From: Pandoraea aquatica
GTDB lineage: Bacteria; Pseudomonadota; Gammaproteobacteria; Burkholderiales; Burkholderiaceae
DNA length: 64,000 nucleotides
Direction: 5' to 3'
Assembly: GCF_902459565.1 (NCBI RefSeq)
Contig: NZ_CABPSN010000001.1
Span: forward strand, 186,001 to 250,000
Part shown: positions 48,354 through 64,000 of the stretch, one piece after another
Layout of the letters: the number at the start of each line of letters is the position of its first letter
How positions within the stretch are numbered: the stretch's first letter is position 1
Program-made: the position numbers and the translations under genes
Notes under the pieces: model-generated
The model's input: the letters and a program-made list of their open reading frames with translations, nothing else
Told to the model about the DNA's origin: nothing
Database searches by the model: none

Positions 48354-49424
48354 TCAGCATTCGATGGCACTTCCCGGAACCACTGATGGGGGAGCCTGAA
48401 GATCACACGAAGACGAAAGAAAATCGGCATCGCGGTGCTCCCCTGCATTCTTGGCATCTTCAACGGACATCGCAGCGGAAAAGCAGACGCCGTTCTTTGC
48501 TGCCGTGATTTCCGCAAGAATCGACACTGCAATTTCGGCGGGCGATTTGCTTCCGATGTACAAGCCTGCCGGGCCGCGTAGACGTGCGACTTCATGCGTT
48601 GTCAGGTCGAACTGCAACAGTCGCTGCCGTCGCGCTGCGTTGTTTCTTCGTGATCCGAGCGCGCCGATATAAAACGCCGGTGTGCGTAGCGCTTCCATCA
48701 GCGCGAGATCGTCCAGCTTCGGATCATGTGTCAACGCAATCACGGCCGCCCGGCTATCCAGGCGCATCGACACCACGACGTCGTCGGGCATTTCACGCGT
48801 GAGCGTCACGCCCTCGACGTGCCAATTGTCGGCATATTCTTCGCGCGGATCGCACACGATCACCTGATAATCGAGACCGGTTGCGATCTGGCAAAAGAAG
48901 CGCGAAAGCTGCCCTGCCCCAATGACGAGCAAGCGATAACGCGGGCCGTGCACGGTTGTTAAGGTGTCGCCGTCGAAATGGACGCCCTCCTTCACTGGCG
49001 CTGCGCAGATCTCCGTGTTGCCGGTGTGCATATCCAGCGTGCGTGCGACGAGCTTTTGTTGTAGCACGGCGCACAGCAACTCCCGAATTCGGCTGCGCTT
49101 CGAGACTGGTTCGAGGGCGAGCCGTATCGTCCCGCCGCAGGGCAGCCCGAAGCGGTGAGCTTCGTCTGCGCTGATGCCGTACTCCACAATCTCGGGCGAT
49201 TCGAGATGAATGCCGTTACGCCGGACGCGGTCAATAAGGTCGTCTTCGATGCATCCCCCGGAGACCGAACCGACTACGCGTCCATCGTCACGAATGCACA
49301 ACATGGCGCCCTCCGGGCGCGGCGACGACCCCCACGTCTTGATGACCGTGACGAGCAAGGTGCGTCGACTATCGTCGATCCAATCCGCGCATTGCGTCAG
49401 CACTTCAATATCTTCGCTATTCAT
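48354..49424 (-). CDS. xdhC: XdhC-family molybdenum-cofactor insertion chaperone
   Basis: A 356-residue protein of the XdhC/CoxI family, which loads sulfurated molybdenum cofactor onto xanthine-dehydrogenase-type enzymes. It shows the N-terminal VTVIKTWGSSPRPEGAML and GSVSGGCIEDDLI and the C-terminal Rossmann part RLLVIGAGQLSRFFCQIA and YIGALGSRRN. It lies 21 bp after an MFS gene under the MarR-linked promoter, on the same strand as the molybdenum hydroxylase genes at 57801-62265, its likely client. Confidence 0.88.
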   Translation of the reverse strand: MNSEDIEVLTQCADWIDDSRRTLLVTVIKTWGSSPRPEGAMLCIRDDGRVVGSVSGGCIEDDLIDRVRRNGIHLESPEIVEYGISADEAHRFGLPCGGTIRLALEPVSKRSRIRELLCAVLQQKLVARTLDMHTGNTEICAAPVKEGVHFDGDTLTTVHGPRYRLLVIGAGQLSRFFCQIATGLDYQVIVCDPREEYADNWHVEGVTLTREMPDDVVVSMRLDSRAAVIALTHDPKLDDLALMEALRTPAFYIGALGSRRNNAARRQRLLQFDLTTHEVARLRGPAGLYIGSKSPAEIAVSILAEITAAKNGVCFSAAMSVEDAKNAGEHRDADFLSSSCDLQAPPSVVPGSAIEC

Positions 49425-49445
49425 GGTCGTCTCCGCGCCTGACGT

Positions 49446-50768
49446 TCAATGCTGCACGCCTAACCGTTCGTGATCAGGCGCACGCCAGACCAGCCCGATC
49501 AGCAAACCGAGCACACAAAGCGCAGCGATATACCAGGCGGGTGCCATGGTCAGCCCCTGCTTTCCGACGAGAAATGCCGCAATCGCCGGTGCCGTGCCAC
49601 CGAATACGGCATACGCGGTGTTGTACGACAGTGCAAATCCCGTAAAGCGAACCTCAGCCGGGAAACTCTTGACGATGATGTAGGGCCCGAGGGTAATCGT
49701 GCCGATCAGGAATCCGCCGGCGATATAGAGCGGCCACACGAGCTGGCTCGTCGAACCCAGCGACATGTAGAACGCGGCCGTCACCACGAGCATCGCAAGA
49801 CTGCCCAGCGCATAAGCCCGTCCCCCGCCAATCTTGTCAGCCGCCCATCCCGCGAACGTGCTACCGATAATCAGGCCGAAGATCGACCACGAGTTGTTGG
49901 CGAACACCTCCTTCGGTGCCAGATGGAACTGTGTTTGCAGATACGTCGGGGTGTACAGAAAATAGACGACGAAGATGCCCGAGAACACCCACGTCGCAAG
50001 CAGGCCAAACACCAGCGCCTTGCGGTGCTGTTTCAACACGATAGCCAGCGGCAGACGGGCGTCGGCCTCACGTTTGGCGCGCATCGCTTCGAACACCGGC
50101 GTTTCCTGGAGATAACGACGCAGGTAGACCGAAATCAGACCGAAAACACCGCCGGCGATGAACGGAAGACGCCAGCCCCACGTCTTCAGGCTTTCCGGGT
50201 CCATGTTGCCGATGAGAAACTTGGCGCTCAGAGCCCCCAGCAAGATGCCCGTACAAAGTCCCGACATCAGCAGCCCGCAGGCGAGGCCCACGCGATCGCG
50301 GCGCACGTGTTCGGCGCAGAAAATCCACGCGCCGGGCACTTCGCCGCCGACCGACAGGCCTTGAAGCACGCGACACAGAAGGAACAGCAGCGGTGCCACG
50401 AGTCCGATCATCGCGTAACTCGGCAGCAAACCGATCAACAGCGTCGGGGCGGCCATCAGAAACAGGCTGAGTGCAAACATCTTCTTTCGCCCGATCCGGT
50501 CGCCGAAGTGCGCGAAGAAGATGCCGCCAATCGGCCGGACGAGATAACCGGCGGCGAAAATACAGAACACCTCCAGTTGCGCAAGCCACTCAGGTGTTTG
50601 CGGTGGGAAGAATACGGTCGCAAGTAACTTCGTGAAGAAGACGGCAACAATGAAGTCGTAATACTCCAGAGCGCCACCAAGCGACGCCAGCATCAGCGTC
50701 TTGATATCGCCCATCGACATTGCACGTCCACTTGAGACAGCCTTGATCGGGACTGGGGTAGAGGTCAT
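49446..50768 (-). CDS. MFS transporter, metabolite:H+ symporter type (1)
   Basis: A 440-residue transporter with about 12 helices. The MHS-type start is GGALEYYDFIVAVFF, and the MFS loop motif is GDRIGRKKMF around residues 90-99. It probably takes up the pyridine carboxylate or a related organic acid. Two TCAG-N4-CTGA palindromes lie in the 329-bp region between this gene and the divergent MarR gene, and xdhC follows 21 bp downstream, so transporter and chaperone form an operon controlled by that regulator (inference). Confidence 0.87.
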   Translation of the reverse strand: MTSTPVPIKAVSSGRAMSMGDIKTLMLASLGGALEYYDFIVAVFFTKLLATVFFPPQTPEWLAQLEVFCIFAAGYLVRPIGGIFFAHFGDRIGRKKMFALSLFLMAAPTLLIGLLPSYAMIGLVAPLLFLLCRVLQGLSVGGEVPGAWIFCAEHVRRDRVGLACGLLMSGLCTGILLGALSAKFLIGNMDPESLKTWGWRLPFIAGGVFGLISVYLRRYLQETPVFEAMRAKREADARLPLAIVLKQHRKALVFGLLATWVFSGIFVVYFLYTPTYLQTQFHLAPKEVFANNSWSIFGLIIGSTFAGWAADKIGGGRAYALGSLAMLVVTAAFYMSLGSTSQLVWPLYIAGGFLIGTITLGPYIIVKSFPAEVRFTGFALSYNTAYAVFGGTAPAIAAFLVGKQGLTMAPAWYIAALCVLGLLIGLVWRAPDHERLGVQH

Positions 50769-50831
50769 TCGTTTGCTCCAAACTCTGCGGGTTTACCGGT
50801 TTTTGAAAATTCCGCGTGACCTCCTCATCTA

Positions 50832-50845
50832 ATCAGTGCACTGAT
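50832..50845. promoter_or_regulatory. Candidate MarR operator 1
   Basis: ATCAGTGCACTGAT is a perfect 14-bp palindrome, 64 bp upstream of the MFS start. It shares the core TCAG-N4-CTGA with sites at 50922 and 57744. Confidence 0.65.
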
Positions 50846-50921
50846 AGAATGGGGGTCATTCTGGTTTGCATATGGCGGCAGTCGTACCTGCTACGCCACC
50901 AAAAAGGGTTACTGAATTATT

Positions 50922-50937
50922 TGTCAGTATGCTGACA
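50922..50937. promoter_or_regulatory. Candidate MarR operator 2
   Basis: TGTCAGTATGCTGACA is a near-perfect palindrome with the same TCAG-N4-CTGA core, between the MFS and MarR genes. Confidence 0.6.
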
Positions 50938-51097: not shown

Positions 51098-51601
51098 ATG
51101 AGCACGGCCGCCAAAGAAACCACGAGTACTGAGGGCGTTATCGAAACGGGACATCTCTGGCAACGTCCAGGATTCCTGATCCGCCGACTCAACCAGATTC
51201 ACATCGCCCTCTTCTTCGAAAGCTGCAAGGACTTTTCCATCACGCCCGTTCAATACGGGTTGCTCACTACGCTTAGCGAACACCCCAATCTCGATCAGAC
51301 GTCGCTATGCGCGGAGGTCGGTGTCGATCGCACGACGATGGCCGATGTCCTGCGCCGTCTCGAAGAGCGAGGTTTGGTCAAGCGAACACCGAGCGCAAGC
51401 GACGGACGCGTCAAGATCGCCAACATCACCGCACGGGGCCGCGCGATCATGCGAGACATGTACGCGAGCATGCGTGAGGCTCAAGTTCAGTTTCTCGCGC
51501 CGCTGGAGGAAAAGGATCAGGCCACATTCATCCGGTTAATGATGCAACTGGTGGAAGGCAATAACCAGTACGGTCGCACCTCGCTCAATCACTTCGACTG
51601 A
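51098..51601 (+). CDS. picR: MarR-family repressor of the pyridine-catabolic locus
   Basis: A 167-residue winged-helix regulator. The recognition region is LDQTSLCAEVGVDRTTMADVLRRLEERGLV with wing RTPSASDGRVKIANIT, as usual for MarR. It is divergent from an MFS-xdhC unit and next to the catabolic operon, whose upstream region shares its TCAG-N4-CTGA palindromes. By analogy with picolinate (PicR) and nicotinate (NicR) regulators, it likely represses until an aromatic intermediate binds. The symbol reflects context and is the least certain part. Confidence 0.8.
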   Translation: MSTAAKETTSTEGVIETGHLWQRPGFLIRRLNQIHIALFFESCKDFSITPVQYGLLTTLSEHPNLDQTSLCAEVGVDRTTMADVLRRLEERGLVKRTPSASDGRVKIANITARGRAIMRDMYASMREAQVQFLAPLEEKDQATFIRLMMQLVEGNNQYGRTSLNHFD

Positions 51602-51674: not shown

Positions 51675-53270
51675 TCACACCGTAATGTCGCGCCGGAACG
51701 TCTCGGGAACAAAGAGCACGCCGACGACGAACGATAGCGCGGCAATGGCGATCGGATACCACAGCCCGAAATAGACATTACCGGCCGCCACCGACATGGC
51801 GGATACCACGAAGGGCAACATTCCGCCGAACCAGCCCGACCCGAGATGGAACGGGAGCGACAACGACGTATAGCGAATGCGCGCAGGGAACAGTTCGACC
51901 ATAAACGCCGCCATCGGTCCATAGACCATCGCCAGAAAGAGCAGAAGCACCCACATCAACAACACGACCATCGGGGCGTTGATGGATGCCGGATCGGCGT
52001 GCTTCGTCCACCCCATTGCCGTCAGCGCGCTTTCCAGCGCGTGTCGCTCACTCCCCTGCACTTCTACGCGGCCAATGACGGTTCTCACCGGTTCACCGGC
52101 TTTCTGGTGGGCCTGGACGTACGACACACCCGACGCCGACAGGAACTCCCTCACGCGATCGCACTCGGTGCGCGCAGAGGAAAACAACGAGAATTGACAA
52201 TCGCTGGCGTAGATCGTGACGGTCGTATTTTTCTGGAATGCTTCGAGTTGTGGATTCGCGTAGTGGGTCAAGGCCCGGAAAATCGGCTGGGTGGTCAACG
52301 CGAGCAAGAGGCACGCGCTCATCATGATCCATTTGCGCCCGATGCGATCCGATAACCAACCGAACAGAACGTAGAACGGGAACACGCAGACGAGTGCAAT
52401 CGCCAGATACAGATTGACGGCGTTGGGGGCGACCTTCAGCGTGTTCTGCAAGAAGTACATGGCGTAAAAGTGCCCCGTGCCGAAAATCACGCCGACACCC
52501 GACGCCGTACTGAACAGCATGATCAGCACGTACTTCAGGTTTCCCCAATTGCCGAAACTCTCGCTGACCGGCGATCTCGACAGGTTGCCTGCGTGCTTCA
52601 TCTGTTCAAACGTGGGCGACTCCGCCAGCCGGGTGCGCAGATAGACCGACACGATCAACAGCACGGTCGACACCAGGAACGGTATCCGCCATCCCCACGA
52701 CTGAAAGGCAACCTCGTCTACGAGCGCGCGCGATACGCCCACCACTGCGATCGACGAAAGCAGTCCAAGGGTTGCCGTCGTTTGAAGCGAGCTCGTGTAG
52801 AAGCCCCGTTTGGACGGCGGTGAATGCTCGGCGAGATAGGTCGCTGCGCCCCCTGTCTCTCCCCCCAGCGCGAAGCCTTGCAACAACCGCAGACTGACGA
52901 GCAGTACCGGCGCAAGCATGCCGATCTGCTCATAGGACGGCAATAGGCCAACGCCAATTGTCGCCACCCCCATCAACACGATGGTGGCCATGAACGTGTA
53001 CTTCCGCCCGATCCGGTCGCCGAGTCGGCCGAAGAACAGCGCGCCGAGCGGTCTGACGAGAAATCCTGCGCCAAAGGTGGCAAGACTGGCGAGGAAGGCC
53101 GTAGTTTCGTTTCCGCTCGGGAAGAACAGCGCACCGAAGACCCCGGCCAGCGCCGCGTAGACATAAAAGTCGTACCACTCCAGCAATGCGCCGAATGACG
53201 ACGCGAAGATCAACACAAACTGATGGCGCGTCACAATCGCGCGCGATGCGGGGGATGTCATCGTATTCAT
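51675..53270 (-). CDS. MFS transporter, metabolite:H+ symporter type (2)
   Basis: A 531-residue transporter with about 12 helices: SFGALLEWYDFYVYAALAGVF marks the MHS family, and GDRIGRKYTFM is the MFS loop. A roughly 100-residue hydrophilic insert (about residues 325-425, with two cysteines) separates late helices, making it longer than transporter 1. It is the last gene of the catabolic operon, 85 bp beyond the maleamate amidase gene. Likely carries the pyridine carboxylate or a dicarboxylate product. Confidence 0.87.
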   Translation of the reverse strand: MNTMTSPASRAIVTRHQFVLIFASSFGALLEWYDFYVYAALAGVFGALFFPSGNETTAFLASLATFGAGFLVRPLGALFFGRLGDRIGRKYTFMATIVLMGVATIGVGLLPSYEQIGMLAPVLLVSLRLLQGFALGGETGGAATYLAEHSPPSKRGFYTSSLQTTATLGLLSSIAVVGVSRALVDEVAFQSWGWRIPFLVSTVLLIVSVYLRTRLAESPTFEQMKHAGNLSRSPVSESFGNWGNLKYVLIMLFSTASGVGVIFGTGHFYAMYFLQNTLKVAPNAVNLYLAIALVCVFPFYVLFGWLSDRIGRKWIMMSACLLLALTTQPIFRALTHYANPQLEAFQKNTTVTIYASDCQFSLFSSARTECDRVREFLSASGVSYVQAHQKAGEPVRTVIGRVEVQGSERHALESALTAMGWTKHADPASINAPMVVLLMWVLLLFLAMVYGPMAAFMVELFPARIRYTSLSLPFHLGSGWFGGMLPFVVSAMSVAAGNVYFGLWYPIAIAALSFVVGVLFVPETFRRDITV

Positions 53271-53355
53271 TGTTGGCCCCAAGGCTACGCCCGTCTGTCA
53301 GCCACGCCGAATGCGAACGTCACGTGCCCGGGCATCGGCGCGACCCATGACAACG

Positions 53356-53988
53356 TTAGCGAGCGGACAGGTCTCCGAGAAGGTTCATTGCGGCATCTCG
53401 CGGCAATACGACGGCATATTTCTGCGCCATGTCGAACAGATTCGCCTCGTGTGGTGCAATGGCACGGTCGCCAACGCAGTCACTCAGGACAAAAGGGCGA
53501 AATCCGTACTGCATTGCATCCACGACCGATGCCCGCACGCACCCGCTGGTCACCGCACCGGCGACCACCAGTGTTTGTACGCCGCGTTGCGCCAGCCAGG
53601 CGGCAAGCGACGTGCCAAAGAACGCAGACGGAACGGTCTTCCTCACGATCAGTTCGCCATCGGCAGGTGCAAGCTCCGGCACGATCGCGCTGTCATGCCC
53701 GCGTTCGACCAGCTTGAGCATGCCCGGCACCTTTTCCGTAAAGATGTTGTGATCCGCCCCGTCGTCGGCAAACACAATGCGCGTGTGGGCTACGGGCCAT
53801 TTTCGTTCCCGCGCGAACGCCAGCAGCGGCACCGTGTTGTCGATGGCCTGCCGAATATTCCCCCCGCCGAATACTTCAGGGTTCGCGAAGCCGTTGACGA
53901 AGTCCACGATCAGCAGGCCCACAGGCGCTTTGGGTTGCAACGGGCTTCCGAAGCTCTGGCGTTGATAGGTTTCCAGGTCGTTACTCAT
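53356..53988 (-). CDS. nicF: Maleamate amidohydrolase (isochorismatase family)
   Basis: A 210-residue cysteine hydrolase. The catalytic triad is visible as Asp29 in LLIVDFVNGF, the Lys in IVRKTVPSAFFGT and the nucleophile Cys in VAGAVTSGCVRAS. In this gene context it is the maleamate amidase (NicF/PicF) that gives maleate plus ammonia. An AAGGAAG site precedes the ATG. The dioxygenase gene ends one base before it, so the two are coupled. Confidence 0.85.
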   Translation of the reverse strand: MSNDLETYQRQSFGSPLQPKAPVGLLIVDFVNGFANPEVFGGGNIRQAIDNTVPLLAFARERKWPVAHTRIVFADDGADHNIFTEKVPGMLKLVERGHDSAIVPELAPADGELIVRKTVPSAFFGTSLAAWLAQRGVQTLVVAGAVTSGCVRASVVDAMQYGFRPFVLSDCVGDRAIAPHEANLFDMAQKYAVVLPRDAAMNLLGDLSAR

Positions 53989-53989
53989 T

Positions 53990-55030
53990 TCAATGGCTTC
54001 CTTTGACGACGCAGCCGTTGCGAACCACGGCCTCACCGTCCAGATAGACGTCACAATGGCGCAGTGGGATATCGATATGACAGGTGGTTGTGCGGCTTCC
54101 GCCGGCTTCGTTATTCGGGCCGAGGGAGAAAAGGAAGTTGCCCTCGAACGCCCGCGCGTCCATGCCGATGGTTTGCTCTCGATCGTATAGACCGAGTGTC
54201 GACCAGTGCGCGCGAGGTTGCAGCCCCCAGCCGATGTGCGAGATGGCATACGCCTGGTCGTCCCTGAACGTCGCCATGTACTCGGACAGCAGTTGCGCAT
54301 CCACACCCCCTTCGATTCGGGTGGCGAAACCGTTCTCCACCGTCAGCTCGATAGGGTCGTTCACGTAGCTCTTTTGCGGCAGCAGAATGTCGCCGCGGTC
54401 GATGACGATGCGACCGTACGCCTGACCGTCGTTCGGGAACGTGAGCGCAAAGCCGCTCGGCCAGTGATCCCACCGTCCCGGCTCGTCCACGAAGCCATAC
54501 TCGGCGATCGGGTGAAACTCCCCAAGCGGACAATGAAAATCGGTTCCGGCGGCCGACACGATATGCATCTCACGTGCCCTGCCGATTCGGGCCTGTGCAG
54601 CCAGCACGCGTTCGCGATCTTCCAGCGTCGGCACGAGCCGTGTCAGGACTTCGGGCGGCTCCACGGCCAGCAGAATCTTGGTGCCCCCTTTCAGAATGTC
54701 CAGTTGCTCCGGCGAGAACAGCAACGTCATCAGGTCCAGCACCAGATCGCTTTCCTTCAACGCGGCAATCGCCGCTCGATTGCCGGTGAGCGGGGTCGTG
54801 CCCAGGTAAGCCAACGGGTCGCGACTCAGTGCCTTCTCGCCGTTGACAGGCGGGAGGTCGAGCCGGTTGACGACGGCACCGAGCGCTTGCGTCGCGATGA
54901 GTGCCGTCGACAAGGTCTGCGCATGGGTATTGGCGCTCGTCAGAATCGTGACGGTTTGGCCTGCCTCAAGGCGAGACAGCTTCAGGACACGCGTCCAGGC
55001 GTCCACCATTTGAAAATCACTTACGGGCAT
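53990..55030 (-). CDS. nicX: 2,5-dihydroxypyridine 5,6-dioxygenase
   Basis: A 346-residue enzyme of the NicX/PicD family, related in fold to aminopeptidases. It opens the 2,5-dihydroxypyridine ring to N-formylmaleamate with Fe(II) and O2. The family's metal ligands are plausibly the His in AISHIGWG and the His and Asp of TTCHIDIP. The start at 55030 has a GGGAGGG ribosome binding site. It sits between the deformylase (34 bp upstream) and the maleamate amidase, in the order expected for consecutive pathway steps. Confidence 0.88.
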   Translation of the reverse strand: MPVSDFQMVDAWTRVLKLSRLEAGQTVTILTSANTHAQTLSTALIATQALGAVVNRLDLPPVNGEKALSRDPLAYLGTTPLTGNRAAIAALKESDLVLDLMTLLFSPEQLDILKGGTKILLAVEPPEVLTRLVPTLEDRERVLAAQARIGRAREMHIVSAAGTDFHCPLGEFHPIAEYGFVDEPGRWDHWPSGFALTFPNDGQAYGRIVIDRGDILLPQKSYVNDPIELTVENGFATRIEGGVDAQLLSEYMATFRDDQAYAISHIGWGLQPRAHWSTLGLYDREQTIGMDARAFEGNFLFSLGPNNEAGGSRTTTCHIDIPLRHCDVYLDGEAVVRNGCVVKGSH

Positions 55031-55064: not shown

Positions 55065-55904
55065 TCAGATCGTTGGCAGCGGCGCACCGAGAAAACTGCC
55101 GAATGCCTGATAAAAGCCCGGCTCGTTGTCCCACGGGATCATGTGCCCGGCGTCGGCCACCCTGACATGCACGACCTGAGGCGCTAGTCCCTGGATCTCC
55201 TCGACATCGGCATCCAGGACGACGTCGCCTCGCGCGGCGGTCATCAACATCAGGGGAATCGCCAGAGACGGCAGGTTCACGTGAATGTCGTCGGTATGAA
55301 AGCCGTCAAAGCTCTCGCGAATGGCGCGTTCGTCGCACGTGTGGAGCCATTCCGCCCGCAACTGCAATTGGGCCTCGGTCCAGGTCGGGCAGAATTCGCG
55401 CATCGCTTGCGCGTCCATACCGTGCCTTGCCAACGCCATGGAATCGACGTACCAGGGCAGCTTTGACGGATAGGCGCGACGCCCAGGGCCCGAGACCGGC
55501 GGATCGACGGCGACCAGACGGGCAAGCCCCTCGGGTCTATCGGCGGCGGCGCGAACGCCGATGCGTGCCCCCATGGAATGCCCCACCACGCTGTACCGCT
55601 TGAGACCAAGGCCGGCGGCGAAGGCGACGAGGTCGGCAGCCTGAGCGTCGAGACTGTAGTCGAGCGTTTCGGATGCCGACGACAGGCCGCGCCCGCGAAC
55701 ATCGAGGACGTAGGTATCGAACGCCTTGCCGAACGTTTCGCCGACGAAGCCCCAGGTGATGGCGGGACTCGTGATCCCCGGCACGATAATCACCGGATCG
55801 CGAGTCGCGCGCGCACCATCGTTACCACCGTAGCGAAGGTAGTGCTGGCGTATGCCGTTTGCGTGGACGTTGCCGCCGTAGAGAAATGTGGATCGTTGAC
55901 TCAT
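55065..55904 (-). CDS. nicD: N-formylmaleamate deformylase (alpha/beta hydrolase)
   Basis: A 279-residue alpha/beta hydrolase: PVIIVPGITSPAITWGF is the oxyanion region, VVGHSMGARIG the nucleophile elbow and ADAGHMIPWD the His region. Between dihydroxypyridine dioxygenase and maleate isomerase genes it fits NicD/PicE, which removes formate from N-formylmaleamate. I chose the ATG at 55904 because GGAG lies seven bases upstream; an ATG at 55925 lacks a site at proper spacing. Confidence 0.85.
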   Translation of the reverse strand: MSQRSTFLYGGNVHANGIRQHYLRYGGNDGARATRDPVIIVPGITSPAITWGFVGETFGKAFDTYVLDVRGRGLSSASETLDYSLDAQAADLVAFAAGLGLKRYSVVGHSMGARIGVRAAADRPEGLARLVAVDPPVSGPGRRAYPSKLPWYVDSMALARHGMDAQAMREFCPTWTEAQLQLRAEWLHTCDERAIRESFDGFHTDDIHVNLPSLAIPLMLMTAARGDVVLDADVEEIQGLAPQVVHVRVADAGHMIPWDNEPGFYQAFGSFLGAPLPTI

Positions 55905-55967
55905 CTGTTGCTCCAGTGCTTCCATCCTTCAATCAGCCCGCTCAGTAGGAACAGTCAATGAGCCCGC

Positions 55968-56717
55968 TCAATAAGCCCCGGACAGCAGCGCGCCGGCACC
56001 GGGGACGACAGGCTCCAGATCCAGCGTCTTCAGCATCGCGTAAGTCGTGGCGATTGCTGCCGTGATCACGGGCTTGCCGGTCATCGCTTCGACCTTGGCG
56101 ACCGCGGGCAGCGACGGCATCTGAACGCACGCGGACAGCACGATGGCATCTGCCTCCTGGTAGCGCAGCGTCTTGACGATGTCAGGCAGACGGCTGGGAT
56201 CGTGGCGACCGACGTCGAGGTTGTCGGGGATCTCGAGGGCGCGATAGTCGATGACCTCGTAGCCTTCGTTGCGGATGTAATCCACGACCAGTTCCGTCAG
56301 CGGCTTCATGTAAGGCGCCACGACGACGATACGTTTCGCGCCGATCACCTTGAGGGCATCGACCAGTGCACCGGCGCTGGTGATCACCGGGGCTGCGCCG
56401 CCGTTCTCGGCGGTGTGCTCGGCAAGGCGCTTCTGAGACACACGGTGGTAGCCGTGCCCCATGGCCATGATGGCGACGAGGCACGCGTAGCCCAGCACAT
56501 CCACGCGCGCGTCGGATAGCTCCACGGCGCAGCGGTCGGACTCGGCGTCCATGGCGGCCAGTTCTTCTTTGACGACCTTCTTCATGCGCATGCGACTGGA
56601 GTGAAACGTGAAACGCTCAGGTCGGATGTTCTGCCGGGCAAGCAACATTGCCGGGATCTCTGTCTCCATCGTGGTGTTGGAACTCGGCACAATCTGGCCA
56701 ATGCGGAAATTTTTCAT
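55968..56717 (-). CDS. nicE: Maleate cis-trans isomerase
   Basis: A 249-residue Asp/Glu-racemase-fold enzyme that isomerises maleate to fumarate. Both active-site cysteines are present: Cys79 in GYACLV and Cys197 in LSACVQMPSL. SSNTTMETE at the N-terminus is typical. It delivers the pathway's product to the TCA cycle. Located between the decarboxylase (45 bp upstream) and deformylase genes of the same operon. Confidence 0.9.
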   Translation of the reverse strand: MKNFRIGQIVPSSNTTMETEIPAMLLARQNIRPERFTFHSSRMRMKKVVKEELAAMDAESDRCAVELSDARVDVLGYACLVAIMAMGHGYHRVSQKRLAEHTAENGGAAPVITSAGALVDALKVIGAKRIVVVAPYMKPLTELVVDYIRNEGYEVIDYRALEIPDNLDVGRHDPSRLPDIVKTLRYQEADAIVLSACVQMPSLPAVAKVEAMTGKPVITAAIATTYAMLKTLDLEPVVPGAGALLSGAY

Positions 56718-56762: not shown

Positions 56763-57728
56763 TTACAGGCGAAAGAGACGCTCGGCGTTACCGTGGCAAA
56801 CGAGCTTGCGCACGTCTTCGTCGAGCGGCGCTTCTTCGATGAACCGGGCGGCGATTTCGGTGGATTCGTAGGGGTAGTCCACCGAAAACAGCACGGCTTG
56901 CGGCCCCATCTCGCCAATGGCACCCGCCAGCGCAGCTGAAGAACACACGCCGGAAGTGGTAATGACGATGTTCGTGCCGATGTAGGCGGACGGCGCCTGC
57001 TTCAGTTCGACGCCATGCGAGTAGACGGCGAACCGGCTGTCGAATCGCCACCGCAGGAACGGAATGCCCTCGCCCATATGGCCCAGAATCAGCTTGACGC
57101 CCGGGAAACGGTCGAAGACACCACCGAACAGCAACCGCAGCGCGTGACTCGCCGTCTCCACACCCCACCCCCACGTTGCGCCGAGAAGTTCGGGATGGCC
57201 TTCCAGTACGCGCGGGTGGGCAAAGGCATCCGTCGGATGCAAGTACAGCGGGACGTCCAGGTCCTGCAGCGTGGCCCAGAAGTCGTCGTAGGCACGGTCG
57301 TCGTAATACCTGCCGTGCGTGTGACCGTTGACCAGCGCGCCTTTGAACCCCAGCGTATTCACGGTGCGTGTCAGCTCGCGTGCAGCGACTTTGGCGTCGT
57401 GCATCGGCAGCGTGGCGAAGCCGCCGAACCGCGTCGGATGACGTCCGATCTGCTCCGCCAGAAAATCGTTACTCATCTGTGCGAGCGATGTGGCCTGCCC
57501 GGCGTCGGTCTCACCCTGCACGCTCGGTCCGGTTTGCGACAGGATCGTGTAGTCGATGCCGGCGCGATCCATTTCCTGGAGGCGCAACCCATCGAAATCG
57601 GCGAGCCGCGCGCCAAGATCGCGCAGGACTTCGGGCGCAATATGCTGCGTGAATGCCTTCGAATAGTTCGGGAATCCCGGCGTTGTGAAATGCTCTTCGA
57701 GCGCGATCTTGCGAATTCGGTCGTTCAT
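56763..57728 (-). CDS. picC: Amidohydrolase-2 decarboxylase, probable 3,6-dihydroxypicolinate decarboxylase
   Basis: A 321-residue metal-dependent decarboxylase of the amidohydrolase-2/gamma-resorcylate decarboxylase type. Metal-site motifs are ALEEH near the N-terminus, LYLHPTD, ILGHMGEG and the Asp in FSVDYPYE. With a 2,5-dihydroxypyridine dioxygenase in the operon, the best fit is removal of CO2 from 3,6-dihydroxypicolinate (PicC). I chose the ATG at 57728, which has GGAGC eight bases upstream; an in-frame ATG at 57740 has none. A candidate MarR operator lies 15 bp upstream. Confidence 0.82.
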   Translation of the reverse strand: MNDRIRKIALEEHFTTPGFPNYSKAFTQHIAPEVLRDLGARLADFDGLRLQEMDRAGIDYTILSQTGPSVQGETDAGQATSLAQMSNDFLAEQIGRHPTRFGGFATLPMHDAKVAARELTRTVNTLGFKGALVNGHTHGRYYDDRAYDDFWATLQDLDVPLYLHPTDAFAHPRVLEGHPELLGATWGWGVETASHALRLLFGGVFDRFPGVKLILGHMGEGIPFLRWRFDSRFAVYSHGVELKQAPSAYIGTNIVITTSGVCSSAALAGAIGEMGPQAVLFSVDYPYESTEIAARFIEEAPLDEDVRKLVCHGNAERLFRL

Positions 57729-57743
57729 GTACAGCTCCATTTA

Positions 57744-57757
57744 ATCAGTGTACTGAT
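57744..57757. promoter_or_regulatory. Candidate MarR operator 3, upstream of the decarboxylase gene
   Basis: ATCAGTGTACTGAT is a near-perfect palindrome with the TCAG-N4-CTGA core shared by the two sites next to the MarR gene about 7 kb away. It suggests an internal promoter starting the picC-to-MFS part of the operon. Confidence 0.65.
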
Positions 57758-57765
57758 AATGTGTC

Positions 57766-57789
57766 GGCGATAGCCGTATCGCTATCGCC
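57766..57789 (-). terminator. Hairpin between hydroxylase and decarboxylase genes
   Basis: A perfect 9-bp stem (GGCGATAGC/GCTATCGCC) with a 6-base loop lies 11 bp past the small-subunit stop and directly before the operator at 57744. It has no T-run; it may attenuate read-through or protect the upstream mRNA. Confidence 0.45.
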
Positions 57790-57800
57790 CTATCCGCTAA

Positions 57801-59006
57801 TCAGTCAGCCTTGCCGAACAGACGGCGGATACGTCCCCAGATCACACTCCACACGAGACTTCCCACGTTGAACTTCGTCTGGTCCGTGGCGGCTTCGGGG
57901 GCTGCATTGCCGCCGAGCTGCGCGGTAATACGTGCACCGAAGTCGGCGATCATCCGGCGGACGAAATCCTTGACCAGTCCCGAGCGCGAGAACTGTGCCA
58001 AGGGGCCCTGAAGCATGTACTCCAGCGTGACGGCGACGCGCGTCTGGGTGCCGCCGCCTTCCGGTGTGAGCGTGTAGGTGACGTCGCCATTGGCGCGCGA
58101 ACGGCTGATGTTGTCCTGCCCGGCACCGCGCATGACGGCCCGATGGGCGGTATCGTCGCGATCCAGTCGAGCAGCGCCGGCGAAGTTGGCGGACATCGGC
58201 CCGAATTTGATGGCGATCTTGCCCTTGACCGATTCGCCGTCGTGATCGATGAGCTCCGCACCCGGCAAACAAGCCGTCACTGATGGCAGGTCGCCCATGA
58301 ATGCCCACACCTTCTCGAGCGGGAACGGCACGACGAAGCTGTCGTCGATGGCCGTCCAGCCCTTGCGTTGGGTTTCCGTGGCCGGTTCGTTGCGCGCCGC
58401 CGCGACGGCGACCGTTGCGGCAGGCGTCACTGCATCGCCCGCGTTGGCCGCATTGGCAGTGAACGTCTGGAAAGCCGCCGGCGTCGACACGACCTGTTCT
58501 CGCCGGGTCTCGGGCGCCACATCACGCGCCGCAATCGGGTTGTCTCGCAGGTCCTGCAGGACGGCCTGGATCGACGCCACAATGCCCATGTATCCAGTGC
58601 AGCGGCAAAGATTGCCAGAGAGTTCCAGACGAATGCGCGCCTCGTCCGCATCGGGAAAGCGAAGAATGATGTCCCGTGCGGTGATCAGCATGCCGGGCGT
58701 GCAATAACCACATTGAAGGCCGTGATGAATCGAGAACGAGTGGCGGATGCGGCGCATCAGCTCGTCGTTGTCGAAACCTTCGATCGTGCGTACTTGCTGT
58801 TGCTCGCAAGCCAGCGCAAACGTGATGCACGACCGAACGGGCATATCGTCGACGAGCACGGTGCATGCACCGCACACGCCGTGCTCGCAGCCCAGGTGCG
58901 TGCCGGTCAGGTGCTGGGTCTCGCGCAGAAAATCGCCCAGATGCACGCGAGGCTCGACCTCTGTGCGTACGGCACGATCGTTGATGGTGAGTTCGATGAC
59001 TGACAT
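57801..59006 (-). CDS. Molybdenum hydroxylase 2Fe-2S subunit fused to CoxG/SRPBCC domain
   Basis: A 401-residue two-part protein. Residues 1-160 are the small iron-sulfur subunit, with cysteine clusters CEHGVCGAC (plant-type 2Fe-2S) and CGYCTPGM...CRCTGY (second cluster). After an Ala/Thr-rich linker, residues 215-370 are a CoxG-type SRPBCC domain (FPLEKVWAFMGDLPSVTACLPGAELI), and the C-terminus is short, hydrophobic and basic. Elsewhere these two parts are separate genes. It passes electrons from the molybdenum site and, through CoxG, may tether the enzyme to the membrane. Likely hydroxylates picolinate at C6. Confidence 0.87.
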   Translation of the reverse strand: MSVIELTINDRAVRTEVEPRVHLGDFLRETQHLTGTHLGCEHGVCGACTVLVDDMPVRSCITFALACEQQQVRTIEGFDNDELMRRIRHSFSIHHGLQCGYCTPGMLITARDIILRFPDADEARIRLELSGNLCRCTGYMGIVASIQAVLQDLRDNPIAARDVAPETRREQVVSTPAAFQTFTANAANAGDAVTPAATVAVAAARNEPATETQRKGWTAIDDSFVVPFPLEKVWAFMGDLPSVTACLPGAELIDHDGESVKGKIAIKFGPMSANFAGAARLDRDDTAHRAVMRGAGQDNISRSRANGDVTYTLTPEGGGTQTRVAVTLEYMLQGPLAQFSRSGLVKDFVRRMIADFGARITAQLGGNAAPEAATDQTKFNVGSLVWSVIWGRIRRLFGKAD

Positions 59007-59032: not shown

Positions 59033-59860
59033 CTAATTGCCGAGGGCTTGCGCCAGGCAGCGATTGAGCGCTGCGGTATGCATCTTTCTGTCGATACCAT
59101 CGGCATTGGGCATGGCACCGGCAACGGCAGATTCGAGCGCCTGTTGCGTCGCAGCGCTGGGGCCTTTTTGCGCGATGCTGGCGGCTAACTCGTTCAATGC
59201 GACGGGGGGACCGTCCAACGCCCCCAGAACGACGCGCGCCAGACCGCTTGGCGCGTCGAACACGGCCGCGGCACTCGCGTGCGCAAACTCGCCGGTTTTC
59301 CGACAGAGCTTGTGATATCCCCAATGCATCGAGGCCGACAGCTTAGGCAACAGCACGGCGGTCACGATCTCCCCGTCATCCAGCAGCGTAGTGAAAGCCC
59401 CCTGCATGAAATCGGCAGCCCGGACGATACGGGTTGCGCCGGCACGGGACAATTCCAGCCGGGCATCGAGCGCGGACAATGCGAGTGGCCAGTCGGCAGC
59501 GGGATCGGCATGCGCGAGACTTCCCCCAATCGTTCCACGGTTGCGGATCGCCCGGTAAGCGATTCCGCCCGCGACATACTGAAGATACGCGTGCCTGAGC
59601 AGCGGAAACTTGCCGTCTTCGATTTCGGCATGCGTGACGGCAGCCCCGACGCGAATCGCATCGTTCGTCTCCACCACACCGCGCAGTTCGTCCAGACGAG
59701 ACAGGTCGATGATTCTTGCGGGTCTCGCAAGACGCAGATTGAGCATGGGCCCCATCGACTGACTGCCCGAAATCGGCTTGGTACCGCCGTCTGCCTGCAG
59801 CTCGGCCAGTGCCTCCGACAGATTTGCTTTCCTCACATAGTCAAAGCGGGCCGCTTTCAT
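59033..59860 (-). CDS. Molybdenum hydroxylase FAD-binding subunit (CoxM-like)
   Basis: A 275-residue medium subunit. FAD-binding stretches are ISGSQSMGPMLNLRLARP and RNRGTIGGSLAHADPAADWP (key GTIGGSLAHADP). It accepts electrons from the iron-sulfur subunit. Its ATG overlaps the stop of the large-subunit gene by four bases, and the small-subunit gene starts 26 bp on, the usual tight large-medium-small arrangement. Confidence 0.9.
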   Translation of the reverse strand: MKAARFDYVRKANLSEALAELQADGGTKPISGSQSMGPMLNLRLARPARIIDLSRLDELRGVVETNDAIRVGAAVTHAEIEDGKFPLLRHAYLQYVAGGIAYRAIRNRGTIGGSLAHADPAADWPLALSALDARLELSRAGATRIVRAADFMQGAFTTLLDDGEIVTAVLLPKLSASMHWGYHKLCRKTGEFAHASAAAVFDAPSGLARVVLGALDGPPVALNELAASIAQKGPSAATQQALESAVAGAMPNADGIDRKMHTAALNRCLAQALGN

Positions 59861-62265
59861 TCGACCTCCTCGTGTTGCAAGGCCTGTTTGGCCGGCACGC
59901 CCTTTTGGGCTTTCGCGGCTTCGATGGCGGACAGCAGACGTCTCGGCGTCAATGGCGTTTCCGACACGGTGGCACCCAACGGACGCAATGCATCGTTGAC
60001 CGCATTGAATAGTGCCGCAGGTGGCGCAATGGCACCGCCCTCCCCCACGCCTTTCGCGCCGAACTCCGTGTACGGCGACGGCGTTTCCATGTGAATAATT
60101 TTCAGACGAGGCAACTCGGTCGGGCCGGGCAGCATGTAGTCGGCCAGCGTGGACGTCAGCGGCTGCGCGTTCTCGTCGTACAGCGTCTCCTCGAACAGCG
60201 CGGTACCAATCCCTTGTGCCGTGCCACCGATGGTTTGACCTTCCACGACCATCGGATTGATCATCCGGCCGCAGTCTTCCACGATGACGTAGTCGAGAAT
60301 CTCCACATGACCGGTTTCGGTATCGACGGCGACGGCCGCCGCGTGGGTGGCGTAGCTGAACGCTCCGGTATCCACCTTCGGTTTGAATCCCTGAGTCGCT
60401 TCCAGTCCCGCAAGATCGACGCCTTTGGGCAGACGCTCCGGGCGCAGGTACCAGGCCATCGCAACGTCCGTCAGCGGGATTCGTCCCTTTGCACCGACCA
60501 CTTCTCCGTGCTCGAAGCGTACGGCGCTTTCATCTTCCTGCAAGAGATGAGCGCCGATTTTGACGATGCGCGGCACCAGTTCCCGGCACGTTGCGGCGAC
60601 TGCACCACCGGCCATCACGATGCTGCGCGATGCATAGGTGCCGGTCGAGAACGGCGTGAGCGCCGTATCGCCGTGAACGACCTTGATCTTGGCGACGGGC
60701 ACGCCGAGGATCTCATTGGCAATTTGCGCCAGCGTCGTCTCCATGCCTTGACCGTGCGAGTGGATACCGGCACGCACTTCGAGCCCGCCGTCGGCCGTCA
60801 CGCGCACCGTGGCCAGATCGTATCCGGGCACGATGGGCAAACCCCACGACGCGAACACGGCCGTGCCGTGCGCCGATTGCTCGGTGAAGGTTGCAAAGCC
60901 AATGCCGACCAGCCGGCCGTCCTTTTCCCCCTGCTTCTGGCGCTCGCGCCATTGCGCCACATCCAGTTGATCGACGGCGCGCTTCAGGCTCTCCTGGAAA
61001 TCGCCGCTGTCGTAGTGCTTCTTCACGACGTTGGTATAGGGCATGTCCTGCCCGCGCACGAGGTTGTCGTAGCGAACTTCCCACGCCTCGCGGCCGACGG
61101 CACGGGCAATCGCGTCCATCGTCAGCTCGATAGCGAAGCACACGCCCGTGCGCGCCACGCCACGATACGGCAGGAACCCCGGTTTGTTGGTCGCGGCACA
61201 CTGCGTTTGGCAGCGATACCCTCGGAAGTCATACGGCCCCGGAAGATTGCCGAGTGCCTGTCCGGTTTCGAGGCCAATCGTGAACGGCCAGGCGGAATAG
61301 GCACCGCCGTCGATCAGGAGCTGCGCGTCGAGCGCCAATAGCCGACCTGTCGTGTCGGCGTACGCCGTCAGTTCGTAGTGATGCTGGCGGGTATTGGCAC
61401 CCGCAATCAGGTGTTCGCGACGGTCTTCGATGAAGCGAAAGGGTTTCTTGTACGTTAACGCAAGCCATGCGATGCACAGCTCTTCCTGCTGCAAGACACA
61501 CTTGTAGCCGAACGCACCGCCCACGTCGGGGGAGATCACACGCACCTGCGCGTGGTCGATGCCCAGACACTGCGCGAGCACCGTGCGAATCATGTGCGGC
61601 ACTTGCGTCGACGTAATCACGACAAGCTGCGAATGAGGGTGGTCCCAATAGGCGAGAACAGCCTTACCTTCCATCGGCACCATGCATTGACGCGCCAGAT
61701 CGACCTTCTGCTTGACGACGACCGGCGCGCCTTCGGCATGGGCGGCAAAGTCGACGTCGGCCGTCAGATCCAGAAACAGATTGTTGTCCCAGTGGTCGTG
61801 GACCCGGACGTCGGTTCGATCACGCGCTGTGAACGCGTTGGCGAATGCCGGGAGTTCCTCCAGATCGAGCGCCACTTCCTCCGCGATATCCTCCGCCTCG
61901 GCGCGCGTCGGGGCGAAGCACATCGCGACCGGCTCGCCGACGAAGCGGACCTTTTCCGAAGCCAGCGGCGGATGCGACGACGACTTGTAGGTAGGCAGAC
62001 TGGAATCCGCCACGATATCGGTGGCGCTCGTCATATCGCCACGCACGATCACCTGGCGCTCATACTGCTGCGGCTTGCCGATATGCGAAATGCGCGCATG
62101 GGCAACGGGGCTGCGCAGAAACGCCACTTCCTGAAGGTCGGGGAAAACGTAGTCCGCGACAAAACGCCCTTTCCCATGAAGATGCCGCTCATCCTCACGC
62201 CGACGGACACGCGCGCCAACGCCGCCGTTCTCGACTGGCGATTCGTAGTGGTCTGTGTGGCTCAT
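59857..62265 (-). CDS. Molybdenum hydroxylase large (Mo-cofactor) subunit
   Basis: An 802-residue subunit of the xanthine dehydrogenase/CO dehydrogenase superfamily. Landmarks are the N-terminal GRFVADYVFPDLQEVAFLRSPVAHARI region, ISPDVGGAFGYKC (Mo-cofactor contact), the YRGVARTGVCFAIE segment and the catalytic Glu in GAKGVGEGGAIAPP. With its two partner subunits it would hydroxylate the pyridine ring using water. Substrate assignment to picolinate rests on the rest of the operon; other N-heterocycles remain possible. Requires a matured cofactor, consistent with xdhC at 48354. Confidence 0.9.
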   Translation of the reverse strand: MSHTDHYESPVENGGVGARVRRREDERHLHGKGRFVADYVFPDLQEVAFLRSPVAHARISHIGKPQQYERQVIVRGDMTSATDIVADSSLPTYKSSSHPPLASEKVRFVGEPVAMCFAPTRAEAEDIAEEVALDLEELPAFANAFTARDRTDVRVHDHWDNNLFLDLTADVDFAAHAEGAPVVVKQKVDLARQCMVPMEGKAVLAYWDHPHSQLVVITSTQVPHMIRTVLAQCLGIDHAQVRVISPDVGGAFGYKCVLQQEELCIAWLALTYKKPFRFIEDRREHLIAGANTRQHHYELTAYADTTGRLLALDAQLLIDGGAYSAWPFTIGLETGQALGNLPGPYDFRGYRCQTQCAATNKPGFLPYRGVARTGVCFAIELTMDAIARAVGREAWEVRYDNLVRGQDMPYTNVVKKHYDSGDFQESLKRAVDQLDVAQWRERQKQGEKDGRLVGIGFATFTEQSAHGTAVFASWGLPIVPGYDLATVRVTADGGLEVRAGIHSHGQGMETTLAQIANEILGVPVAKIKVVHGDTALTPFSTGTYASRSIVMAGGAVAATCRELVPRIVKIGAHLLQEDESAVRFEHGEVVGAKGRIPLTDVAMAWYLRPERLPKGVDLAGLEATQGFKPKVDTGAFSYATHAAAVAVDTETGHVEILDYVIVEDCGRMINPMVVEGQTIGGTAQGIGTALFEETLYDENAQPLTSTLADYMLPGPTELPRLKIIHMETPSPYTEFGAKGVGEGGAIAPPAALFNAVNDALRPLGATVSETPLTPRRLLSAIEAAKAQKGVPAKQALQHEEVE

Positions 62266-62308
62266 TGCGTCTTCTCTCTCATGAACTTCCTGTGCATCGC
62301 GCTCCGGG

Positions 62309-62821
62309 TCATACCGGGTATGCGAGATCGTTGGCGATCATCGCGGTGTCGTAGACGGCCTGGCGCTCCTTGAGCAGCAAGATATTGCCATTACGCGCGA
62401 AGCGATCAAAAAGGCGACCCGCCTGATGCAGCGTCGTCGCACCCTCGACGAGGGTCTGAAGCAACATATAGTTGCTTTGCGCGACGATCTCCTCGTCATC
62501 CGCGCTCAGAATGCGAACGTTCGAGACGAAGTGCAGCATGCTGCGTGGTGCGAACATTTGCGTGCGGGAAATCGCCACCGCCCGGTCGTGCAGCATGTCT
62601 CTGCCTTCCGCATACACGAGGCCCACGGGCAAACCACAGGTGGCGTTCTCCAGTTCCGTCACGCGGTAAATGCAATTCTCCGTAAAGAACTCCGGCCAAC
62701 GCTCGATGTCTCCGCCGTCGACGACAGCGCAGTATTCCGCGTGAAAATCCTCAACGGCAGCGCGAGCGATCAGGGCTGCGTCGTGCGCGACGTGCTTCTT
62801 TTCGAAACCTGGCAGTAGCAT
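62309..62821 (-). CDS. Ring-hydroxylating dioxygenase beta subunit
   Basis: A 170-residue SnoaL-like small subunit (EDFHAEYCAVVDGGDIERWPEFFTENCIYRV, key WPEFFTENCIY) that structurally supports Rieske oxygenase alpha subunits. Its ATG directly follows the alpha-subunit stop with no gap. The gene for the molybdenum large subunit begins 43 bp further on, tying the oxygenase to the pyridine pathway. Confidence 0.88.
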   Translation of the reverse strand: MLLPGFEKKHVAHDAALIARAAVEDFHAEYCAVVDGGDIERWPEFFTENCIYRVTELENATCGLPVGLVYAEGRDMLHDRAVAISRTQMFAPRSMLHFVSNVRILSADDEEIVAQSNYMLLQTLVEGATTLHQAGRLFDRFARNGNILLLKERQAVYDTAMIANDLAYPV

Positions 62822-64000
62822 TCAGAACCCCATGACTTCGCGATAGTGTTTGTACATTGACCGGATGGCCGCTTCGGAAATGAGGTTGTCCGCTGTGCCG
62901 ATCTTGTCCGCGTCGAGCTTGATGACGCTACGGTCCGTCACCGACCGGCGCACGCCCTCCTGGACGAACTTCATCGCTTCGTTGTCCTCCAGCCCGAGGA
63001 AACCCGACGGTCCCATCAGGTTGCCCTGACGCAGGCGGTGACGCACCATGTCCTCGGAATCGTCTTCGTAGCCGAACATGGTCCACAGCATGATCATGCT
63101 GTTCGGGCCGTTAGGCACGATGTGCCGGATGCCCAGCGTATTCATTTCGCGTTGCACGATCAGATTCGGCCAGATCGTCTGCATCGTGACCGACCACTCC
63201 GAATCGAACTCCTTGACGAATTCCAGGAAGCGCTCGTCGCGCAGCATCATCCCTTCATGGAACGAGCGCATCTCCTTTTTCTTGTCTTCATCGACGCTCG
63301 CGTAAAGCGAATCGCTCTTCGCCGACGCCATCGTGCCGTGAATGCCGTATTTGCTGTCGGCGATCATCGCCGAGCGGTTGCCTGCCACGAGCAAGCCGAA
63401 AACGACCAGGAACGAGTGCAGAAGGGTCGCGTGGTACGGGTCCTTGAGATTCTCGTGGTACATCTTCCAGTTGCACGGCAACTCGTTCTTGTAGAAGCCG
63501 AGAATGCGCAGCTTTTTGCCGTTGAATACGGCATCGAAATCCCGAAGAATCTCCGGCGTAAGGTACTCCGCCAGCGGCTCCATGTCGTGGACGAACGACG
63601 CGAAGACCACGCCGTTACGCGTGGCGACCGCGAGCTTGCGCAGGCCGTGATCTTCGGCACGGAAGTCTTTCGGCATCCCGCCGAGCTTGTTTACACCCCG
63701 ACGAAAGGGCACGCCTTGCAGATTGCCCTTCAGATCGTATGACCACTGGTGATAGGGGCAAACGAATTCCGTGTTGTTGCCGCGACTATGTCGGCAGAAT
63801 TCGGCACCGCGATGCGCGCATCGATTCTCGAAGACATGGATCGAGCCGTCCTCTGCGCGCGATACGACCACCGGCGTCGGGCCTACGTACGAGCGCTTGT
63901 AATCGCCGGTGTTCGGAACTTCGGCCTCAAGCGCCACGAAGTTCCACGTGCGGCCATGGAAGATTCGGTCGACTTCGCGGGCATACACCGATTCGCTCGT
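62822..64000 (-). CDS. Rieske ring-hydroxylating oxygenase alpha subunit (5' end outside window)
   Basis: At least 392 residues; the open frame runs through the right edge and the true start is not visible. The Rieske cluster ligands are CAHRGAEFC...CPYHQWSYD (CxH and CxxH). The mononuclear iron site is in NWKMYHENLKDPYHATLLH (two His), and the anthranilate-dioxygenase-like N-terminus RIFHGRTWNFVALE is present. In the picolinate model it hydroxylates 6-hydroxypicolinate at C3. Ferredoxin and reductase partners are not in the window and may lie just beyond it. Confidence 0.88.
   Translation of the reverse strand, partial: TSESVYAREVDRIFHGRTWNFVALEAEVPNTGDYKRSYVGPTPVVVSRAEDGSIHVFENRCAHRGAEFCRHSRGNNTEFVCPYHQWSYDLKGNLQGVPFRRGVNKLGGMPKDFRAEDHGLRKLAVATRNGVVFASFVHDMEPLAEYLTPEILRDFDAVFNGKKLRILGFYKNELPCNWKMYHENLKDPYHATLLHSFLVVFGLLVAGNRSAMIADSKYGIHGTMASAKSDSLYASVDEDKKKEMRSFHEGMMLRDERFLEFVKEFDSEWSVTMQTIWPNLIVQREMNTLGIRHIVPNGPNSMIMLWTMFGYEDDSEDMVRHRLRQGNLMGPSGFLGLEDNEAMKFVQEGVRRSVTDRSVIKLDADKIGTADNLISEAAIRSMYKHYREVMGF

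Follow-up and report, generated by a model that had tools for sequence, protein, structure and literature searches.

Introduction

Which compound is the gene cluster at the end of a 64,000-nucleotide stretch of the Pandoraea aquatica genome likely to degrade, and to what could its first enzyme pass electrons? The stretch, called here the window (G000:C1:186001-250000), comes from a genome of 5.96 Mb in 17 contigs. The cluster lies at window positions 48354-64000, mostly on the minus strand, and continues past the window end to 65676. A sequence-only reading had described a near-complete picolinate degradation locus at this place. In this work, gene content and homologues lead us, with high confidence, to regard the locus as a complete pic (picolinic acid) cluster, which would allow picolinic acid to be used as a source of carbon and nitrogen.

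PMC10142695 describes the pic pathway of Alcaligenes faecalis JQ135, in agreement with the Alcaligenes origin given in that earlier reading. The same paper notes a predicted wide distribution of the cluster in alpha-, beta-, and gammaproteobacteria, and it names neither Pandoraea nor Caballeronia. A literature search for picolinic acid together with Pandoraea returned, judged by title, only work on other subjects.

Gene content and predicted reactions

The minus-strand gene order proposed from the letters holds, as each gene named there is an intact open reading frame (ORF) with a fitting domain or solved relative. The dedicated regulator, transporters, and cofactor chaperone are likewise found as a MarR gene, two major facilitator superfamily (MFS) genes, and an XdhC-family gene (Table 1). 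All listed pic genes are intact ORFs whose domain content in Pfam fits their names, PicD excepted, which has no Pfam match. Two earlier statements needed amendment. All published Pic steps have a gene, and the cluster runs beyond 64000, where the suspected ferredoxin and reductase genes are both present. The three subunits of the molybdenum (Mo) hydroxylase were also named correctly; the small one, however, is a fusion with a CoxG domain, which had gone unmentioned. Intergenic gaps from picB3 to picF measure -4 to 72 bases, the widest being that between the picA small-subunit gene (picA-S) and picC, and 85 bases separate picF from T1.

Table 1. Predicted genes and candidate regulatory features of the pic locus (window scale; positions above 64000 lie past the window end)
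Feature	Predicted nature	Position	Strand	Evidence
picB3	Rieske ferredoxin	65371-65676 (L005:6371-6676)	minus	Rieske domain, 8.7e-19
picB4	reductase	64132-65355 (L005:5132-6355)	minus	Pyr_redox_2 and Reductase_C domains
picB1	Rieske oxygenase alpha	62822-64114 (start 114 bases past window end)	minus	Rieske and Ring_hydroxyl_A
picB2	oxygenase beta	62309-62821	minus	Ring_hydroxyl_B, 1.7e-10
picA large	molybdopterin subunit	59857-62265	minus	MoCoBD_1/2
picA medium	FAD subunit	59033-59860	minus	FAD_binding_5, 9.9e-45
picA small	small subunit	57801-59006	minus	Fer2, Fer2_2, COXG
picC	amidohydrolase-2 decarboxylase	56763-57740 (likely start 57728, after GGAG)	minus	Amidohydro_2
picG	maleate isomerase	55968-56717	minus	solved match 4fq7, 1.3e-111
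picE	N-formylmaleamate deformylase	55065-55925	minus	solved match 4l0c, 1.3e-89
picD	2,5-dihydroxypyridine 5,6-dioxygenase	53990-55030	minus	solved match 7cn3, 2.3e-123
picF	maleamate amidase	53356-53988	minus	solved match 3ot4, 4.6e-90
T1	metabolite:H+ symporter-type MFS transporter	51675-53282	minus	TIGR00883, 2e-103, below cut-off
picR	MarR-family regulator	51098-51601	plus	MarR, 3.3e-15
T2	metabolite:H+ symporter-type MFS transporter	49446-50768	minus	TIGR00883, 1e-92, below cut-off
xdhC-like	Mo-enzyme maturation factor	48354-49424	minus	XdhC_C, 5.6e-37
Hairpin, picA-S/picC gap	9-bp hairpin	57766-57789	minus	no T tract
Operator before picB3	candidate PicR-type operator	65697-65708		palindrome TCAG-YRYR-CTGA
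Operator before picC	candidate PicR-type operator	57745-57756		palindrome TCAG-YRYR-CTGA
Operator, picR/T2 divergent region	candidate PicR-type operator	50924-50935		palindrome TCAG-YRYR-CTGA
Operator, T2 side of picR/T2 divergent region	candidate PicR-type operator	50833-50844		palindrome TCAG-YRYR-CTGA

PicA is a three-subunit Mo hydroxylase by its Pfam domains, with homologues in pic loci. The best solved match of its large subunit is quinoline 2-oxidoreductase (1t3q, 6.7e-134), and by inference the enzyme is a picolinate 6-dehydrogenase. The four-component Rieske system, with picB1 and picB2 within the window and picB3 and picB4 past its end, is taken on similar grounds as the putative 6-hydroxypicolinate 3-monooxygenase. 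PicB1 is best matched by the solved salicylate 5-hydroxylase 7c8z (1.7e-129), and its Rieske cluster and iron ligand motifs are kept in all 46 relatives compared.

The nearest solved relative of PicC is an amidohydrolase/gamma-resorcylate decarboxylase. PicC is 98% identical to its counterpart in Pandoraea anapnoica LMG 31117, 79-81% to those in the listed Caballeronia, Paraburkholderia, and Chitinasiproducens loci, and 69% to that of Alcaligenes faecalis AU14, the value that also holds for three Alcaligenes loci. Eight Bordetella loci, RB50 not among them, give 66-69%, a range that leaves out two metagenome-assembled contigs labelled Bordetella (80% and 42%). The PicC of Bordetella bronchiseptica has been assayed and decarboxylates 3,6-dihydroxypicolinate, and mutants show its His163 and His216 to be essential (PMC10142695). 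These residues are matched by His168 and His221 of the Pandoraea protein, which align with His163 and His216 of two 320-residue Bordetella PicC sequences other than that of RB50 and are invariant in 81/81 and 80/80 sequences, respectively.

The full lower route to fumarate (PicD, E, F, and G) is represented by solved-structure matches. PicD is named from the solved 2,5-dihydroxypyridine 5,6-dioxygenase 7cn3; a strict test for its SHIGWG and CHxDxP motifs was passed by 40 of 48 relatives, not by all. The matches of PicG, PicE, and PicF are titled "Maleate cis-trans isomerase", "Deformylase", and "Putative isochorismatase", the last of which we take to be a maleamate amidase. The view of the lower half as the known Nic/Pic route agrees with these matches to a dioxygenase, an isomerase, a deformylase, and a protein of isochorismatase fold. 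The four solved matches come from nic/hpo clusters for nicotinate and nicotine. In contrast to those clusters, the upper pathway here consists of a Mo hydroxylase, a Rieske system, and a decarboxylase, and a flavin monooxygenase is missing from the cluster.

A picolinate route via 6-hydroxypicolinate and 3,6-dihydroxypicolinate is the best reading of this gene set and is supported by it. On the model of relatives, T1 and/or T2 would import picolinate, and PicA (Mo/FAD/2Fe-2S, perhaps matured by XdhC) would hydroxylate C6 to give 6-hydroxypicolinate, on which PicB1-B4 would then act at C3. PicC would decarboxylate the resulting 3,6-dihydroxypicolinate to 2,5-dihydroxypyridine, after which PicD would open the ring, PicE remove formate, PicF remove ammonia, and PicG convert maleate to fumarate.

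Related loci and their gene order

A PicC scan with one genome per species confirmed 136 loci; the counts given here use the best 80, against which each window gene served as a query. Many loci are cut by the stretch covered or by a contig end, which limits the gene counts. PicC reaches at least 60% identity in 55 of the 80, and one or more of picB1, picA-L (the large-subunit gene), picD, and picE accompany it in every one of these 55, so the cluster is no chance assembly. Among these 55 loci, picB1 was found in 45, picA-L in 45, picD in 47, picE in 48, and picR in 42. Both picA-L and picB1 occur in 39 loci, picB1 only in six, picA-L only in six, and neither in four. The remaining 25 comprise one locus that is also pic (L058, 60% after rounding), one with only a 30% picB4 match (L068), and 23 that hold no pic partner in the stretch covered.

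The order B3-B4-B1-B2-A(L, M, S)-C-G-E-D-F, followed by picR and T2, is shared by 13 loci (L013-L017, L019-L022, L043, L048, L057, and L081), and T1 stands between picF and picR in 12 of them, not in L016. These loci belong to another Pandoraea, Caballeronia, Paraburkholderia, Chitinasiproducens, and B. peredens; other gene orders occur in Alcaligenes, Bordetella, Pusillimonas, Advenella, Variovorax, and alphaproteobacterial loci. In Alcaligenes faecalis AU14 (L027), only picR, picC, and picE were found within the 21 kb covered, and picD and picF are missing from the positions they occupy in A. pakistanensis (L029), so the cluster may be rearranged or reduced.

Candidate operators and transcription units

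The palindrome TCAG-YRYR-CTGA marks four candidate PicR-type operators. It occurs three times in the window against 0.12 expected, a number reached by none of 100 shuffles. Nine copies are present genome-wide, four of them at the pic locus, against three for the reversed control pattern. Across related loci, 83 copies were counted in 1.06 Mb of 55 pic loci versus one in 0.36 Mb of 25 others. For this count, pic loci were those with any picB1, picA-L, or picD match, a set that differs from the PicC-defined 55 by including L058 and leaving out L027. The palindrome is conserved in alignments of 14 picR/T2 sequences and of 15 sequences from upstream of picB3, which also show a few promoter-like blocks. 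The picB3 operator lies immediately downstream of a promoter-like TTGACG-17-TAAAGT at 65716-65744 (one found versus 0.3 expected in shuffles).

For JQ135, a PicR site TCAG-N4-CTNN is reported; the operator assignment made here draws on sequence comparison. By analogy with relatives, PicR would repress from four sites until released by a pathway compound: single sites ahead of B3-B4-B1-B2-A and of C-G-E-D-F-T1, and a pair between picR and T2-xdhC. Because both a palindrome and a hairpin sit in the picA-S/picC gap, two transcription units are likely. The hairpin is a possible transcript boundary; the folding z-score of -4.16 refers to 57741-57815, a stretch that includes the operator palindrome as well as the hairpin.

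Points against the assignment and alternative routes

Several observations weigh against the assignment to picolinate. Among the NCBIfam models listed, which for two of the proteins were the best 25, none reached its cut-off for any scanned gene, so the gene names rest on synteny and solved relatives. The substrates of PicA and PicB are assigned in the same way, with no dedicated model, and picolinate itself is proposed from homology and synteny. In addition, picG was found in only 28 of the 55 pic loci, and xdhC homologues in three of the 80, and XdhC may therefore serve Mo enzymes other than PicA. Nor is the palindrome present throughout, as 17 of the 55 loci in its set are without TCAG-N4-CTGA and 19 without TCAG-YRYR-CTGA; those without the former include both Ramlibacter, all three Pseudacidovorax, and most alphaproteobacterial loci.

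An alternative is that the Mo hydroxylase acts on an already hydroxylated picolinate, for example by 6-hydroxylation of 3-hydroxypicolinate, so that the route enters at 3,6-dihydroxypicolinate and runs from PicC onward. Alcaligenes degrades 3-hydroxypicolinate via 3,6-dihydroxypicolinate and PicC, and a different Mo hydroxylase directly before picC in a Comamonadaceae metagenome-assembled genome (L060) suggests that other entry enzymes can feed PicC. Such a route, however, would not need the complete Rieske system present here, and the joint occurrence of picA-L and picB1 in most pic loci also argues against it; we consider it improbable.

It is less probable still that the locus is a nicotinate (Nic) cluster in which picC and picB are passengers. 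Genes G-E-D-F are of a kind common to nicotinate degradation, according to PMC10142695 and the solved matches, but a PicC-class decarboxylase and a Rieske system accompany them. No NicC-type flavin monooxygenase is among the scanned cluster genes, as had been stated before, the rest of the genome not having been searched for one. Separate pic and nic clusters with identical lower genes exist in one Bordetella (PMC10142695), and the only other PicD-like match in the P. aquatica genome (40%) lies on a different contig. The earlier preference for picolinate over nicotinate is supported by the similarity of PicC to proteins of Alcaligenes and of Bordetella, a genus in which PicC has been assayed, and by solved matches that fit the steps.

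That 40% PicD-like protein (L093:6706-8621; G000 contig C5, 302001-318000) stands beside an alpha/beta hydrolase gene and an AMP-ligase-like gene, and the adjoining genes resemble the kynurenine pathway (kynB, kynU, and kynA by reading); the neighbourhood may be a separate ring-opening route. A search of the same genome for a second PicC copy gave only remote relatives (27-34% identity). The one other PicB1-like match (49%) is on a different contig and scores 362.6 bits with AndAc, below the cut-off, in a scan of a 386-residue piece that does not include the N-terminus.

Finally, although the best NCBIfam matches of B1, B2, and B3 are AndAc, AndAd, and AndAb, it is hardly credible that the Rieske genes encode an AndA-type anthranilate 1,2-dioxygenase next to a pyridine pathway of shorter length, because the AndAc score is 431.7 bits against a cut-off of 750, the solved protein nearest PicB1 is salicylate 5-hydroxylase, and the Rieske genes travel with picC and picA.

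A CoxG domain fused to the small subunit of PicA

In the favoured picolinate route, the first enzyme would be PicA, whose small subunit is made up of several parts: 2Fe-2S domains in residues 1-155, a flexible linker, a CoxG domain at about 216-365, and a basic C-terminal helix (381-397). A structure model built with 33 sequences has a mean predicted local distance difference test score (pLDDT) of 73 and a predicted template modelling score of 0.46. Its 10-residue mean pLDDT is 73-95 over residues 221-370 and below 50 in the linker (162-212), and the final helix is modelled at low confidence. The model matches the small subunit of CO dehydrogenase (8uem_C) and CoxG of Mycobacterium smegmatis (8uds). 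With the latter, the modelled CoxG domain aligns at a template modelling score of 0.91 by target length, a root-mean-square deviation of 1.8, and 33% identity, which fits the SRPBCC fold; a match of the subunit to 8uds from sequence without structure gives 3.3e-22.

The 8uds construct is described as "minus lipid anchoring C-terminus". In the PicA relatives, all 33 small subunits are positively charged over their final 22 residues (net +2 to +6), and the best 18-residue moment in the C-terminal tail ranks at the 64th-100th percentile of the same protein.

Counting all loci with a match to the iron-sulfur part, CoxG is fused to it in-frame in 32 of 33. The exception is L060, where the different Mo hydroxylase (large subunit 34%, medium subunit 29%) comes with a separate CoxG-like stretch. 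This enzyme lies directly before picC-E-D-F-G (L060:3144-7317) and may offer an alternative entry to that lower pathway. For six of the 24 loci in which the small subunit was unseen, whole genomes were searched, and the best match was fused in all six, five of the fused matches lying just beyond the stretch covered and that of A. pakistanensis elsewhere; in total, 38 of 39 relatives are fused. PicA-type small subunits with a fused CoxG, 52-54% identical, are encoded in both Alcaligenes sp. SORT26 and A. pakistanensis. One of the six genomes has a second fused protein (46%), so the fusion may not be exclusive to pic. The other four small-subunit-like matches in the P. aquatica genome consist of the iron-sulfur part only. 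In the SORT26 genome (G209, which contains L073), a further Mo small-subunit match and a separate CoxG-like match lie about 3 kb apart (G209:C1:2144472-2147796), an unfused version of the iron-sulfur/CoxG pairing.

In aerobic CO dehydrogenase (CoxM/S/L), CoxG is a separate protein, whereas PicA unites folds resembling the CO dehydrogenase small subunit and CoxG in one polypeptide; no Cu-Mo site is claimed for PicA. PMC13240472 cites CoxG as a quinone-binding protein through which electrons reach the respiratory chain. According to PMC11962113, CoxG-like proteins anchor an archaeal glycerol-3-phosphate dehydrogenase whose quinone reactivity is independent of them, which speaks for anchoring over electron transfer. 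CoxG has likewise been proposed to play such a role with a 3-hydroxypyridine dehydrogenase from Ensifer, and pairing CoxG with a pyridine-ring dehydrogenase is therefore not a new idea. A literature search for fused CoxG in pyridine hydroxylases found none named in titles and abstract openings among the 10 papers listed of 713, and no claim is made that the fusion is new to the literature.

The fused CoxG domain would most likely hold PicA at the membrane. Since published descriptions make CoxG either the membrane anchor or the quinone carrier of CO dehydrogenase, PicA may deliver electrons to the respiratory chain there. We tentatively propose, at slightly less than even confidence, that picolinate dehydrogenase anchors itself and acts as a respiratory enzyme: its tethered CoxG domain would dock at the membrane and carry or meet quinone, and the electrons of ring hydroxylation would enter the respiratory chain directly, bypassing NAD or a soluble carrier.

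Transporters and limits of the pic block

A close homologue of T1 follows picF in 12 of the 80 loci, and in L016 the T1 query matches T2 only; T2 homologues were found in 13. Whereas Pandoraea has these two MFS transporters, the gene divergent from picB3 in Alcaligenes sp. SORT26 (L073:18858-19958) encodes a DctP-type binding protein of a tripartite ATP-independent periplasmic (TRAP) transporter; picolinate uptake may therefore use different transporter types across lineages.

At E <= 1e-100, PicC is present in three of the 32 genomes compared from the genus, counting that of the window itself; at E <= 1e-120 it occurs in 11 of 200 genomes sampled from the family, among them the same three. 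Positions 48452-65783 match another Pandoraea genome (G001) at 93%; the match resumes on the right at 74254 and on the left only at 37843. The third genome (G027) matches 48445-65769 at 83-84% and nowhere else in the 40 kb compared. The immediate flanks differ in both, and since the matches end there, the co-inherited unit is an accessory block from about xdhC to picB3. Nearly all of xdhC lies inside this common block and is co-inherited with pic in Pandoraea. The GDSL gene adjoining xdhC was found in one of the 32 genus genomes at E <= 1e-60, and no tRNA gene that could mark an island edge was found in the window or the adjoining stretch L005.

About 8.5 kb to the right of the pic block are present here and absent from G001. 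This segment includes, at L005:6800-11770 (window scale 65800-70770), a short-chain fatty acid transporter-like gene and a 1160-residue fusion of molybdopterin oxidoreductase, ferredoxin-NAD reductase, and 2Fe-2S ferredoxin, with a LysR gene beside the stretch at 70912-71829. The genes of 65800-70770 have 57-58% relatives elsewhere in 15 of the 32 genus genomes, the window's own included. Within the window, a 772-residue ORF at 42448-44766 has an argininosuccinate lyase-like domain from residue 319 on and no Pfam match before it.

Comparison with known clusters and significance

The pathway and the cluster type are already known, and the locus adds a complete pic cluster in Pandoraea. According to PMC10142695, A. 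faecalis JQ135 shares with Pandoraea the enzymes PicA, PicB1-4, PicC, D, E, F, and G as well as PicR, but its picG is distant, whereas that of Pandoraea lies inside the cluster. In Alcaligenes sp. SORT26, the B genes are on the strand opposite to A and C-E-D-F, while in Pandoraea all genes through T1 share one strand. B. bronchiseptica RB50 has picG between picC and picE and the order picGEDF, as in Pandoraea; unlike Pandoraea, its picT and picB are divergent and its picR is two genes away from picC (PMC10142695). The variations of its own with which the locus had been credited are found in gene order, transporters, and XdhC.

As a pathway, the value of the locus is modest: it offers a gene order common to Burkholderiaceae relatives, its own transporter pair, and a four-site candidate operator map that is testable at once. 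The CoxG fusion is the more useful part, as it gives a testable idea on the electron acceptor of PicA. It predicts both the location of the enzyme and its acceptor, neither of which would be suggested by homology to soluble Mo hydroxylases. If the proposal is true, the CoxG mechanism of CO dehydrogenase would be built into a pyridine-degrading enzyme as a near-constant part of pic clusters.

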